From the NCBI GenBank assembly GCA_016866335.1, contig VGMT01000009.1:1-64000 (forward strand): a stretch of 64,000 nt of DNA, read 5' to 3'. Shown one piece after another: positions 1,815 to 58,041 of the stretch. Position 1 is the stretch's first letter; every line of letters begins with the position of its first letter. The DNA comes from Bacteroidota bacterium. Lineage in GTDB: Bacteria; Bacteroidota; Bacteroidia; CAIKAF01. The translations under genes and the position numbers were made by a program. The notes beneath the pieces were generated by a model. It worked only from the letters and a program-made list of their open reading frames with translations. It had not been told where the DNA came from and did not search any database.

Positions 1815-1879
1815 AGGGATTTGCTGGTCAGTGAATGCAAAGTAACGCAGCGTTTTTCACTTTCGGCTGTCTAACATAC

Positions 1880-3337
1880 GTGAATTCGGTTCAACGGTAC
1901 TTTTTTTTGCTGATTTCAGCACTGTTTTTTCCCCTGTTTGCTACGGCAGGCCGTGCGTTGGAAGGTCGCATGGTCTGCCAAAACGGGGGTGGCCCAGAAC
2001 AGGCTCCTGGTTTGAGCGTTTTTTATGGAGTTACTGGGGGACCCAATGGACCCGTTCGGGCTATGGAGTTCGATAGCGCCTCAGGTATAATTTATGTGGG
2101 CGGCTCCTTCACCTCCTTCCTAGCTGGAACAACCCAAGGAGATGGGCATGTTGCAGGATTCAATCCAAATACAAATCAATGGTTTGAAGTTGCAGGAGGT
2201 TTGCCCGGAACGGTCAACGATTTAATCTTCTGGAATGGAACACTGTATGCCGGCGGTTTATTCACAAACACCAACGGAGATGAATATGGGGTAGCTCGTT
2301 TGGCCGGCAACGGGTGGGAGGAGGCAGGAAATCTCGGCGGAGAAGTACATTGCCTACAGCTATATCAGAATGAATTGTATGCGGGTGGGAATTTTGCCCT
2401 GAACGGGCAAGGAGGGCAATCTGCATACATTGCAAAATTGCTAAATGGCACTTGGAGCAGCCCCGGCTTTACCTTCAATGGAGTGGTAAAAACCATGTTG
2501 GAATGGCAAGGTATGTTGGTGATGGGCGGAGAATTCAACCACAGTGGATTAATGCCCAGCTTGCATGTTTTTGGCTGGAACGGAACTTCAGGCTGGGCCC
2601 CCGGAAGCCCAGGAGCCCCCGTGTATTCCCTTGAAATTTTCCAAGGCGAATTGTATGCCGCAGGCCCCTTGCTTTCTGGATACGACACCTTTGGGTTGGC
2701 CAAACTTCAAAACAATCAATGGACAAACCTTATTTCCCTCGAATTCTTCAACAACACATCGACCTTCTCGCCTACCCAGCTAGCTTCCATGGGTTTTTGG
2801 AAAATTAAGAGCATTGAAAATCAACACCCAGATTATTTTTCACCCCGGCAGCTATACGCCATTGGCAATTTCTTGTTTCAACCCCAAAACCCCAACTCCC
2901 GACCCGGACAAAACATGTTGAGGCTCGATGCGGGTGTAGGGCTTACCGGCGATAGCTTTGCCGACTCCACCGTTTTCGATGTCATTGAAATCAACGGAAC
3001 CGTTTACGTCGCAGGCCTGTTTAGCAGCATAAATCAAACCCCCGCCTACTATTTTGGCTATAGTCGTCAAGAAGCGACCTCCATTGAAATCCACAATGAA
3101 AAAAGTGGCCTTTTGACGGCAGTTCCAAATCCCAGCGCAGGAAGAACGCTAGAATTACGCGGTTTGCCCGAATCTATGATAGGTCAAAAAGGCAGCCTTT
3201 TTAATGAAAGCGGGCAAGCATTGGGGGAACTCCAGCTGCAACCAAACCACCAAGTAATTTTGGGCAATTTGCCCCCAGGAACTTATTTCGCAACTTGGCC
3301 AAACGGCCAATTTGTACGTTTTAGTCTTATTCCTTAA
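1880..3337 (+). CDS. Secreted T9SS cargo protein with repeated propeller-like motifs
   Basis: Secreted protein of unknown function. A hydrophobic signal segment (YFFLLISALFFPLFA) precedes the mature part. The body carries about five spaced motifs of the form W/F-x-G-x-LYAGG-x-F (WNGTLYAGGLF, YQNELYAGGNF, WQGMLVMGGEF, FQGELYAAG, INGTVYVAGLF), as in repeated-blade or kelch-like propellers. The last ~75 residues, beginning AVPNPSAG and ending in a short basic/hydrophobic strand, form a type A T9SS sorting domain, so surface attachment or secretion is expected. I prefer the GTG at 1880, directly before the signal peptide. An in-frame ATG at 1835 would add 15 residues and lies only 20 bp from the divergent gene. 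Confidence 0.75.
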   Translation: MNSVQRYFFLLISALFFPLFATAGRALEGRMVCQNGGGPEQAPGLSVFYGVTGGPNGPVRAMEFDSASGIIYVGGSFTSFLAGTTQGDGHVAGFNPNTNQWFEVAGGLPGTVNDLIFWNGTLYAGGLFTNTNGDEYGVARLAGNGWEEAGNLGGEVHCLQLYQNELYAGGNFALNGQGGQSAYIAKLLNGTWSSPGFTFNGVVKTMLEWQGMLVMGGEFNHSGLMPSLHVFGWNGTSGWAPGSPGAPVYSLEIFQGELYAAGPLLSGYDTFGLAKLQNNQWTNLISLEFFNNTSTFSPTQLASMGFWKIKSIENQHPDYFSPRQLYAIGNFLFQPQNPNSRPGQNMLRLDAGVGLTGDSFADSTVFDVIEINGTVYVAGLFSSINQTPAYYFGYSRQEATSIEIHNEKSGLLTAVPNPSAGRTLELRGLPESMIGQKGSLFNESGQALGELQLQPNHQVILGNLPPGTYFATWPNGQFVRFSLIP

Positions 3338-3358: not shown

Positions 3359-3946
3359 ATGATGCGACCGCTTGACCATATCGTTTCAGACTGCCTCAGG
3401 GGAAAACCCACGGCGCAGCGGGAATTGTATGACCGCTATGCATCTTTGCTGCTGGGAATCTGCTTTCGCTATGCCAACGGACGCGACGATGCCGAAGAAA
3501 TTCTCCAACAATCCTTCATTAAGATTTTTACCCGTATGGAATCCTTTAACAACCAAGGTTCCTTTGAAGGCTGGATGAAGCGGGTGACTATAAATACGGC
3601 CCTTAACTTTTTGAGCAGCCAAAAACGCCTGGGATTCACCGAAGAGGTAACTCCACACACCGCATTTCACAATGAAGATCCTGAGGCCGAAATGATACGC
3701 AGCATGGAACATGAAAAGCTGTTTGAGTGCATTGGACGTTTGCCTGATGGCTATAGGGTGGTTCTTAACCTTTTTGCCATTGAAGGCCTTAGCCACAAAG
3801 AAATTGGCGAACGCTTAGGCATTACTGAAAGCACCTCACGTTCCCAATTCGTGCGGGCTAAATCGGCCCTGAAAAAAATATTGGAAGAGAGTTTTAATAC
3901 AGATGCAATTCCCTATGTCGGTAAAGTGGTTCGAACTTCTGCGTAA
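3359..3946 (+). CDS. ECF-type RNA polymerase sigma-70 factor
   Basis: Sigma factor of the extracytoplasmic-function type, 195 residues. Region 2 spans roughly 20-90 with RDDAEEILQQSFIKIF, which contacts the -10 element and core polymerase. Region 4 at about 130-185 carries the helix-turn-helix GLSHKEIGERLGITESTSRSQFVRAKSALKK. It starts 21 bp after the T9SS cargo gene. Its 3' end overlaps the next gene by 44 bp, so sigma factor and partner are probably made together. Its regulon cannot be inferred here. Confidence 0.92.
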   Translation: MMRPLDHIVSDCLRGKPTAQRELYDRYASLLLGICFRYANGRDDAEEILQQSFIKIFTRMESFNNQGSFEGWMKRVTINTALNFLSSQKRLGFTEEVTPHTAFHNEDPEAEMIRSMEHEKLFECIGRLPDGYRVVLNLFAIEGLSHKEIGERLGITESTSRSQFVRAKSALKKILEESFNTDAIPYVGKVVRTSA

Positions 3947-5780
3947 GCGCGCCGGGGAGTTTCGTATGACTCCCCCGGATTGGATTTTCAGGCAGATTCA
4001 AAACGAACTGCCCGGTCAGGCTATTCCCGGTTTAAAGGAGCGGGCCGAAGCATTTGTTGTGCAACCCTCTGCCGGTTTGTTTGATGGCATACAAGCCGGT
4101 TTGACCGACCAGGTTGCGCCCGCATTGCAGGAACAAGCTGAAGACTTCCGCCTTACTCCTTCAGAGCAGTTGTTTGGAAAAATTCAACAGCAACTCCCCG
4201 GGCAGACCCTTCCGGCCTTGACCGAAAAAGCGGCCGACTTCCGTCTACAACCCTCGGCTCAGGTATTTCAGCGCATTCAAAACCGATTGTTGGCCCGTCG
4301 CCGTCGTCGGGTCGCCGCCCTATTGCTCACCCTGCTTATGTTGGGCTCCACGGCTTGGTTCTTACCTACATTCTTTGGTGATTCAGCCCTAGGAACCGAC
4401 AACAATACCGCTTACCAAGGTTCAGAAGCAACTCAAACTTCACTGCCAAATCAAAATTCAGGCAGCCAAGCACCTGAATACCAAAACAAAAACCAAACAG
4501 GAAAAGCAACGTCCCACGAAATGGCATCTGCCGCCACCGGAGCCAATGACCAAGGGATTTCAAACAACGGCATTGTAGGCAAAGCCCAAACAAATCAGGC
4601 CAATTCAAATGCCAGGACATCCGTCCAGCAAAACGAAACCTCAAAAGGCAATTCTAATGCCTCAAATCCCTCCAAAAAAGAACAGGCAAACAGAATGGCA
4701 TCTAAAAACCCCGCCGCACTGCAGTCCAACCAATCTGAAAATAAAACAACTCAACCAACCAAGATTCAGCGTTCGGGAAAAGGAATCGGAAATAGGTCCG
4801 CGGCGGGAGGCAAAGGCCTTGCTGGAGGCCAAAAAGAAACCGCACAGCCAGGTTCAGGCAAGAGGGAAACCTGGGAGCCCCTGGAGCTAAATTGGGAAAA
4901 GTACAAAGCTGAGCGCATCGAACCTGTCTTCAGCTGGAGCTCATTCGACAACCGCTGGAAACGCCCACATATAGAAAAAGTGTACCTGCGCAGCCCACAA
5001 CGCCGTCCCGCACGGTTCTCGGTGCGCGGTCAATTCGAAGCCACAGCCTTGGCTACTCAAATGAACTTTAGCGAAAACCCCGATTATCAAGGCAAAAAAA
5101 GCAGCTTGTTGAATCCCGCTTCGTACCAAGACCTAGAATCACGGTTGCAGACTCCCGATTTTTCCTATCAGGTTCAAGCAGGATTGGAGTTCGGATTCAG
5201 GTCGGTTTACCTACGCACAGGACTTAGTTTGCTGCGCTTGACTTACCAGCAAAACGAACTGCATTTTGAACATAAAGCCTTGATTGTAAACGTGCCGGTT
5301 ACCGACACCCTGACGTTTACCAATAGTGCTGGGAACGACACCACTGTGGTGTACAGCTATACCAAGCCCGAGTTAAAAGATGTGCTTGACACCACACGCA
5401 TCACCTACGCCGCCCTGGCTACCTATGTAAGCGTTCCCTTGGCATTTGGCTACAGGTACGAACGCGGACGCTGGTTTGCCCAGGCAGACCTAGGGCTAGC
5501 GCTGAACCTGTTTGTCGAAGGCCGTGGATTGGCCTACATGGCAGCAGGATCAACCGTTTTGTCGCCCACAAGCCAAGCCGATCAAGCGCTGTGGAACAGT
5601 TTGGGCTTGGACGCCACGGCCCGTCTTAAAGCAGGCTTAAAACTTTCTAGACGCTGGTCCGCAGCCCTGCACCTAGACCTTCGCATGGGCTTACGCCCAG
5701 TATATTCCCGCGACCAGGCCTTGCACCAAACCTATTCGGGTATGGGCCTTGGCTTCTCGTTAAACCACCGTTTATACTAA
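3903..5780 (+). CDS. ECF-linked inner-membrane protein with four 31-residue repeats and a PorT-like outer-membrane domain
   Basis: This 625-residue protein has three parts. Residues 17-130 hold four tandem 31-residue repeats, each starting A-x-(E/D)-F and containing PS/PP-x-x-(I/L/V)-F-x-x-IQ-x-x-L. A poly-Arg stop (ARRRRRV) and one transmembrane helix (about 138-158) follow. Next is a long Gln/Asn/Ser/Lys-rich linker (about 160-350), then a C-terminal region rich in alternating aromatic strands (about 350-625) resembling an outer-membrane beta-barrel of the PorT type. By family knowledge, Bacteroidota ECF genes are often followed by proteins with a cytoplasmic segment, one helix and such a barrel; an anti-sigma role is inferred. 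The start may also be the ATG at 3915. Both lie inside the sigma gene. Confidence 0.75.
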   Translation: MQFPMSVKWFELLRKRAGEFRMTPPDWIFRQIQNELPGQAIPGLKERAEAFVVQPSAGLFDGIQAGLTDQVAPALQEQAEDFRLTPSEQLFGKIQQQLPGQTLPALTEKAADFRLQPSAQVFQRIQNRLLARRRRRVAALLLTLLMLGSTAWFLPTFFGDSALGTDNNTAYQGSEATQTSLPNQNSGSQAPEYQNKNQTGKATSHEMASAATGANDQGISNNGIVGKAQTNQANSNARTSVQQNETSKGNSNASNPSKKEQANRMASKNPAALQSNQSENKTTQPTKIQRSGKGIGNRSAAGGKGLAGGQKETAQPGSGKRETWEPLELNWEKYKAERIEPVFSWSSFDNRWKRPHIEKVYLRSPQRRPARFSVRGQFEATALATQMNFSENPDYQGKKSSLLNPASYQDLESRLQTPDFSYQVQAGLEFGFRSVYLRTGLSLLRLTYQQNELHFEHKALIVNVPVTDTLTFTNSAGNDTTVVYSYTKPELKDVLDTTRITYAALATYVSVPLAFGYRYERGRWFAQADLGLALNLFVEGRGLAYMAAGSTVLSPTSQADQALWNSLGLDATARLKAGLKLSRRWSAALHLDLRMGLRPVYSRDQALHQTYSGMGLGFSLNHRLY

Positions 5781-6079: not shown

Positions 6080-6096
6080 TTTCACCCAAGTGGCCC

Positions 6097-6237
6097 GCGG
6101 CAGGGATTGACGAGGCTACCCCGCAAGGGTGCCAAAGCCTAGCCCGCTAGGTGCGGAGGCGACTTTAGGAGCCCCCGCAAACCAGCTGGGCTAGGCCTTT
6201 GGCAACCGCGGAGTAGCTCGGAAAGCCCGGTTGCCGC
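6097..6237 (+). repeat. Family-1 structured palindrome, copy A
   Basis: The copy opens GCGGCAGGGATTGA and closes GAAAGCCCGGTTGCCGC, so GCGGCA pairs with TGCCGC. Inside, GCTAC-CCGC pairs with GCGG-GTAGC. TGCCAAAGCCTAGCCC (6130-6145) pairs with GGGCTAGGCCTTTGGCA (6188-6204). GTGCGG pairs with CCCGCA around the constant apical part GGCGACTTTAGGAGCC. It lies between the remnant ORF and gcvH. Copy F has the same layout with A-T pairs replaced by G-C pairs in the long stem. Confidence 0.8.
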
Positions 6238-6254
6238 CCCACTAGAATACCTAG

Positions 6255-57799: not shown

Positions 57800-57879
57800 A
57801 AAGGCATTGTCGTGGCCCATAAGCCATCGATAGTTAGGGCCGGCCTTGCGGCTGCTCCCAGACCTTAAAGCCATGAGCC

Positions 57880-58019
57880 GCGGCAGGGATTGACGCAACT
57901 ACCCCGCAAAGGTGCCAAAGCCTGGCCCGCTAGGTGCGGAGGCGACTTTAGGAGCCACCGCAAACCAGCTGGGCCAGCCTTTGGCAACTGCGGAGTAGTG
58001 CGGAAAGCCCGGCTGCCGC
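57880..58019 (+). repeat. Family-1 structured palindrome, copy F
   Basis: Nearly the same stems as copy A: TGCCAAAGCCTGGCCC pairs with GGGCCAGCCTTTGGCA, and ACTACCCCGC with GCGGAGTAGT. GCCTAGCCC/GGGCTAGGC of copy A has become GCCTGGCCC/GGGCCAGC here, changing both partners together. Apical GGCGACTTTAGGAGCC is identical to A and B. The 80 bp between E and F hold no recognisable feature. Confidence 0.8.
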
Positions 58020-58041
58020 CCAAAATCCAAGTCCCAAAAAA

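Follow-up and report, generated by a model that had tools for sequence, protein, structure and literature searches.

Four tandem copies of a presumed sigma-docking unit in a candidate Dma-type anti-sigma factor of a Bacteroidota bacterium

Introduction

What purpose might four tandem copies of a short N-terminal segment serve in a membrane protein encoded beside an ECF sigma factor? The question is raised by a 64,000-nucleotide stretch of Bacteroidota DNA (contig VGMT01000009.1, positions 1 to 64,000; here called the window), in which an earlier note had described such a protein and proposed that it is a direct sensor reaching from an outer membrane barrel to the sigma factor, with several sigma-binding units. 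A comparable design is known from the Dma proteins, which have an N-terminal anti-sigma domain, a transmembrane helix, a disordered tether, and a C-terminal barrel, and are encoded adjacent to an ECF21 sigma factor (PMC13088901, available portion). Here we describe the gene pair and the repeat array, survey the N-terminal unit among related loci, and weigh the explanations for its multiplication.

Results

An ECF sigma factor and a candidate envelope-spanning partner

Three genes of the window form the setting of the array:

1835..3337, + strand: secreted beta-propeller protein with a T9SS-like C-terminus (by eye); Pfam Rax2, 2.9e-11
3359..3946, + strand: ECF sigma factor of 195 aa, presumed partner; Pfam Sigma70_r2 2.9e-14, Sigma70_r4_2 3.5e-14
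3903..5780, + strand: candidate Dma-type anti-sigma factor with four units, 625 aa, alternative start at 3915; orthologues L002 to L006

The proposal that an ECF gene lies beside the repeat protein is borne out, as both Sigma70_r2 and Sigma70_r4_2 are recognised and the pair is kept in all six genomes of the genus searched. The 3' end of the ECF gene overlaps the start of the repeat-protein gene by 44 nt. In Pfam and NCBIfam, libraries without ECF-group models, the sigma factor matches general sigma models only. The beta-propeller gene ends 21 nt before the ECF gene, and partial sequence from the six genus genomes shows, by eye, a comparable upstream gene; the gene product could be either regulated by the system or a ligand of the barrel.

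The open reading frame at 3903–5780 on the forward strand translates into 625 residues. M5 rather than M1 is invariant among the six orthologues and the single-unit orthologues begin there, so that a start at M5 (nt 3915) is just as good and may be the true one. Downstream of the repeats, the protein is divided as follows:

4296..4367, + strand: RRRRR (residues 132–136) and transmembrane helix (residues ~137–155); hydropathy peak at ~137, helix at 119–150 in a low-confidence model
4377..4877, + strand: low-complexity periplasmic linker, residues 159–325, rich in A/N/G/S/Q/T/K and presumably disordered; from composition, with pLDDT 21–26 in a model that is poor throughout
5016..5777, + strand: predicted C-terminal outer membrane beta-barrel domain, residues ~372–625; from hhalign to relatives and Pfam matches of orthologues

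The positive-inside rule gives the orientation of membrane helices, and the run of five arginines followed by a hydrophobic helix points to an inner membrane anchor with the N-terminus inside. A polypeptide at full extension covers 0.34 nm per residue, and the linker of ~165 residues would thus reach ~55 nm, which is ample to cross the periplasm. In comparison with L002, the linker has 45% identity and a dN/dS of 0.57, against 91% and 0.05 for residues 326–625.

The C-terminal barrel proposed in the earlier note is supported at the level of profiles. An alignment of the barrel region of the six orthologues matches the C-termini of 17 ECF-linked relatives (hhalign 97.7%, E 1.3e-12, 202 columns), and two of the six orthologues match OMP_b-brl_2 (PF13568; best 5.7e-9). 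The same model is found at E ≤ 0.01 in 20 of a set of 28 proteins comprising the window protein, the 17 relatives, and others, as a total over that set. The window protein itself has no Pfam match; among its Pfam and NCBIfam matches at E ≤ 1 there is no anti-sigma model, and a class I anti-sigma domain (ASDI) was not recognised in it. A single chain predicted to pass through both membranes is likewise supported, and corresponds to the published Dma architecture as given in the available portions of PMC13088901 and PMC9308784.

The NCBIfam model NF052375 ('anti-sigma factor') was considered as a marker for Dma proteins and rejected, being a widespread ordinary anti-sigma model. It matched one of 28 members at 1.2e-4 (the matched member is not among the ten scanned singly), gives a weak match inside the L022 protein, and responds in seven of 14 control genomes, exceeding its cut-off in one.

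Window positions 6085–6250 (and also 57878–58021) hold a GC-rich palindromic element of ~150 bp with a DNA fold z-score of -7.4. The 6085–6250 element has at least 42 matches in the window's genome (40 of 206 candidates scored), 39 of the other 41 at 87–95% identity, and is a member of a REP/MITE-like repeat family. The matching intergenic region of L002 contains an ORF that by eye resembles a REP-associated transposase and has internal protein repeats.

Four 31-residue repeats at the N-terminus

The N-terminal part of the protein contains four units (AGEFRMTPPDWIFRQIQNEL.., AEAFVVQPSAGLFDGIQAGL.., AEDFRLTPSEQLFGKIQQQL.., and AADFRLQPSAQVFQRIQNRL..) that start, in the phase first noted, at residues 17, 48, 79, and 110, a period of exactly 31. 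The four 31-residue repeats that had been noticed are confirmed by self-comparison of residues 1–137 (BLOSUM62), with maxima of 153, 119, and 44 at offsets of 31, 62, and 93, respectively, against a best of 33 at any offset from 15 to 99 in shuffled sequences (0 of 10,000 shuffles as good). The units are 33–48% identical in protein and 46–60% in DNA, and Tandem Repeats Finder detects no DNA tandem array in the window array. Similarity at the protein level in combination with the lack of a DNA array indicates that the repeat is old and has been maintained at the protein level. The four-unit array is also present in three congeneric genomes (L002, L003, and L004), which rules out an assembly artefact.

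Comparison with relatives shows that the family-wide unit begins about eight residues before the phase given above, and is presumably a helix-turn-helix hairpin of 28 residues:

3927..4010, + strand: presumed docking unit 1, residues 9–36; motif score 31.3, dN/dS 0.26 vs L002; two helices in both low-confidence models
4020..4103, + strand: presumed docking unit 2, residues 40–67; motif score 17.0, dN/dS 0.04 vs L002
4113..4196, + strand: presumed docking unit 3, residues 71–98; motif score 26.9, dN/dS 0.07 vs L002
4206..4289, + strand: presumed docking unit 4, residues 102–129, adjoining the membrane; motif score 23.9, dN/dS 0.43 vs L002

AlphaFold models of the full-length protein (from a three-row alignment) and of residues 1–152 alone have mean pLDDT values of 34.2 and 49.5, respectively, and were taken as a weak hint only, for the regular pattern of helices: about two per unit, with the last helix continuing into the membrane. 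Comparison of the family profile with solved structures returned nothing convincing (eight matches, best E 0.27).

The unit is nearly restricted to partners of ECF factors

An alignment of 13 ECFs was used to search 395 genomes of the class, 344 of which have a match at E ≤ 1e-38. Survey loci were taken from the top of this one ranked search, with 150 places among the matches listed: 30 loci were taken automatically and 80 of the other 120 were added, leaving out four places near contig starts (G098, G312, G387, and G085) and 36 places after G170:C5. Dropped before counting were L007 (without an ECF), L008 and L009 (on the same contigs as L002 and L003), L136–L141 (further, weaker ECFs from the genome of the window), and 17 loci with an ECF identical to one already kept. 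The final survey, with earlier loci included, holds 115 distinct ECF genes, and since these come from the top of a ranked search, the frequencies given below apply to relatives of these ECFs rather than to all Bacteroidota.

For the N-terminal motif, 58 W-containing seeds, none of them from the window protein, were compiled into a position-specific matrix, in which column 0 was softened so that F is accepted. The motif is approximately x[FI][ED]xx[LF][RK]xx[L]xx[HFY]xxxP[PS]xx[VL]Wxx[I]xxxL. Shuffled N-termini (5,550) give a best score of 7.5 and a 99.9% point of 1.4. At 7.5 or above, the motif is found at 107 of the 115 ECF loci, of which the 58 positives that supplied seeds are not independent, as opposed to one of 313 other ORFs of at least 150 aa in the survey loci, a control set that includes antisense frames and some ORFs counted twice through overlapping loci. 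None of the 53 other ORFs of at least 150 aa in the window reaches this score. The loci without the motif are L013, L015, L017, L021, L024, L071 (which scores 5.4), L099, and L135, the last two having no readable partner. Near-restriction of the motif to ECF partners is the basis on which docking of sigma by the units is proposed. In this survey the cytoplasmic part of such proteins reduces to one motif of ~28 residues. The window units carry F where the family has W and score 17–31, below most single units, such that some of them may be degenerate.

Two individual loci merit mention. The sole exception in the control set, an ORF of 245 aa on the minus strand of L084 (score 10.4), has by eye a unit and a membrane helix, and shares its locus with an ECF/type-B partner pair. 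In the window's genome, the only other ECF near this group is L135 (G000:C47:12044–12571; E 4e-65, the next being 8e-21); the contig ends within its partner gene, and a match to the unit motif is missing from the readable N-terminus.

Two C-terminal architectures share the unit

Among the 113 readable partners, Pfam OMP_b-brl_2 is matched at E ≤ 0.001 by 49 (5/37 plus 44/76), CHU_C, a type IX secretion signal domain, at the same cut-off by 30 (29/37 plus 1/76), and PKD_4 by 17. With our own profiles the 115 loci divide into 77 with a barrel, 30 with a T9SS type-B domain, and eight unassigned, the window protein being one of the eight. The type-B partners (e.g. L105, L111, L122, L079, L082, L087, L094, L096, L064, and L125) have an N-terminal unit and transmembrane helix as in the barrel partners, with a type IX type-B sorting domain replacing the barrel; L105, L111, and L122 have two units. 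That the unit and the helix are common to both classes is the best comparative argument that the unit meets the sigma factor. From their sequences, the type-B partners may possibly represent a second class of envelope-anchored anti-sigma factors. Our searches of open-licence papers found no description of anti-sigma factors with type IX sorting domains; the PorA-PorXY-SigP system is arranged differently.

Copy number, conservation, and the alternatives

The number of units per locus (n = 115) is one at 85 loci, two at 18, four at five, and none at five, and two loci are without a readable partner. Units were counted at a score of at least 1.4, such that L071 (under 7.5) counts as one unit; for L055, a second unit was added by eye, and a weak match in the L074 linker was left uncounted. 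All of the zero-unit loci (L013, L015, L017, L021, and L024) come from a protein search, and four of the five group apart on long branches of the ECF tree. By eye there is an apparent diverged unit in L024. The view that many ECF partners carry a single unit was to be checked by counting homologues, a check set beforehand, and it agrees with these numbers.

Four-unit forms are the window protein, L002, L003, L004, and L124, which belongs to a different family. L124 has anchors at 25/56/87/121 with spacings of 31, 31, and 34, its third unit scores only 9.5, and its ECF is 37% identical to that of the window. The congeners L005 and L006 have a single unit and a similar beta-propeller gene upstream, and the ECF of L006 is 63% identical to the window ECF. 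Of the claimed fourfold multiplication, its presence in the window protein stands; it is not unique, given the 18 two-unit loci and the unrelated L124.

We infer sigma binding by each unit, the topology, the release trigger, and the effect of four copies, and favour the reading that the protein is a Dma-type anti-sigma factor in which four docking hairpins on one tether probably raise capacity and/or avidity. The N-terminus would be cytoplasmic, one helix would cross the inner membrane, and the flexible tether would span the periplasm to a barrel in the outer membrane. In the resting state, the sigma factor from the neighbouring ECF gene would be held at the inner membrane by the cytoplasmic part, and a disturbance at the outer membrane end would release it. 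The docking element would be a 28-residue helical hairpin that is single in most surveyed relatives; multiplied to four with its hydrophobic core retained, it would offer four equivalent docking sites per tether, which could hold several sigma molecules and/or, by engaging both domains of one sigma, bind it with avidity.

Against L002, the nearest orthologue, every unit has a dN/dS below 1 and is more conserved than the linker, as judged from 28 codons each and without a significance test; six codons at the start of unit 1 lie within the overlap with the ECF gene, and several comparisons with L003 and L004 are saturated for synonymous change. Conservation is uneven, with identities to L002 of 86–96% for units 1–3 and 71% for unit 4, the least conserved of the four. 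This unevenness, together with the single unit at most loci, would suit a model in which sigma is bound by a single unit, either the first or the one nearest the membrane, and the others form a helical spacer or stalk for reach or protease access. We consider this unlikely, as a spacer would not need the motif, and all four units of the four four-unit orthologues keep the core (F/L at -9, P at -5, an aliphatic residue at -1, F at 0, and I/V at +3).

A second alternative is that the units multiplied by neutral or ratchet-like recombination, leaving regulation unchanged. Unit number does vary elsewhere in the family: L077 and L089, from another genus, have ECFs that are 87% identical and differ cleanly by one 33-residue unit whose flanks are conserved, and L080 and L128 likewise differ by a one-unit indel. 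The ECF tree, made by a quick method and with support below 80 for 47 of its 112 inner branches, needs at least six changes between single and multiple states. However, four genomes of the genus retain all four units, even where protein identity falls to 59%, and no unit is as relaxed as the linker, which makes a purely neutral expansion improbable. Copy number is thus labile across the family and constant in the four-unit clade of the window, as represented by four genomes.

It is very doubtful that the units bind something other than sigma (another cytoplasmic protein, or each other for oligomerisation), since, even though we only infer sigma docking and solved structures give the unit profile a single match (E 1, to an unrelated innexin), in the loci examined hardly any ORFs other than ECF partners have the motif, and the available portion of PMC13088901 places the anti-sigma domain of Dma at its N-terminus.

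Discussion

We prefer the reading of the window protein as an anti-sigma factor with multiplied docking sites, and a wider proposal can be attached to it, in which our confidence is somewhat less than even: Bacteroidota might assemble anti-sigma factors from a swappable 28-residue docking hairpin, in arrays of one, two, or four, tethered either to a barrel or to a type-B anchor, with the copy number setting the sigma capacity or the release threshold and the anchor setting what is sensed. If true, the cell could follow type IX secretion directly through a type-B anchor. Occurrence of the motif in proteins that end in type IX sorting domains suggests a second class of anti-sigma factors reporting on the envelope. 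The natural versions with one, two, and four units constitute a dose series with which to ask whether docking sites set the sigma stoichiometry or the release threshold.

In FecI/FecR-type signalling an outer membrane event is also relayed to an ECF factor, through a separate TonB-dependent receptor and anti-sigma protein. The window protein differs in having both ends on one chain.

Class I anti-sigma domains (as in RseA, RskA, RsiW, and ChrR) resemble the window protein in pairing a short helical cytoplasmic element with an ECF factor. They are described as four-helix domains that touch sigma4 through helix 1 and sigma2 through helix 4 (PMC7406223, available portion), whereas the window protein has presumed two-helix hairpins with another motif. 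A class I partner is reported near only 6% of Bacteroidetes ECFs in the available portion of the same source, a figure that fits the use of another docking element in the phylum.

The closest likeness is to the Dma proteins. In the accessible text of PMC13088901, Dma1 is introduced as the first member of a group of anti-sigma factors whose domains reach from the outer membrane to the cytosol, the phenotype of dma2 in B. thetaiotaomicron needs das2, what Dma2 senses remains a hypothesis, and Dma3 has a sigma domain fused to it. For Phocaeicola vulgatus, the 15 genes changed by a transposon in an anti-sigma gene of this kind shift in the same way under the toxin BcpT (PMC9308784, available portion). 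The proposal of a direct outer-membrane-to-sigma sensor agrees with this architecture, but the window protein is not a new type of sensor, as outer-membrane-to-cytosol anti-sigma factors have already been described as Dma (PMC13088901, available portion). Those parts of the two Dma accounts (PMC13088901, PMC9308784) that are accessible make no mention of a repeated anti-sigma element. The window protein and Dma are alike in the adjacent ECF gene and, as predicted for the window protein, in the N-terminal cytoplasmic domain, the single transmembrane helix, the long tether, and the C-terminal outer membrane barrel; they differ in the four tandem units of the window protein. On sequence grounds, the window protein would thus be a form of the already known Dma kind in which the docking unit has been multiplied.
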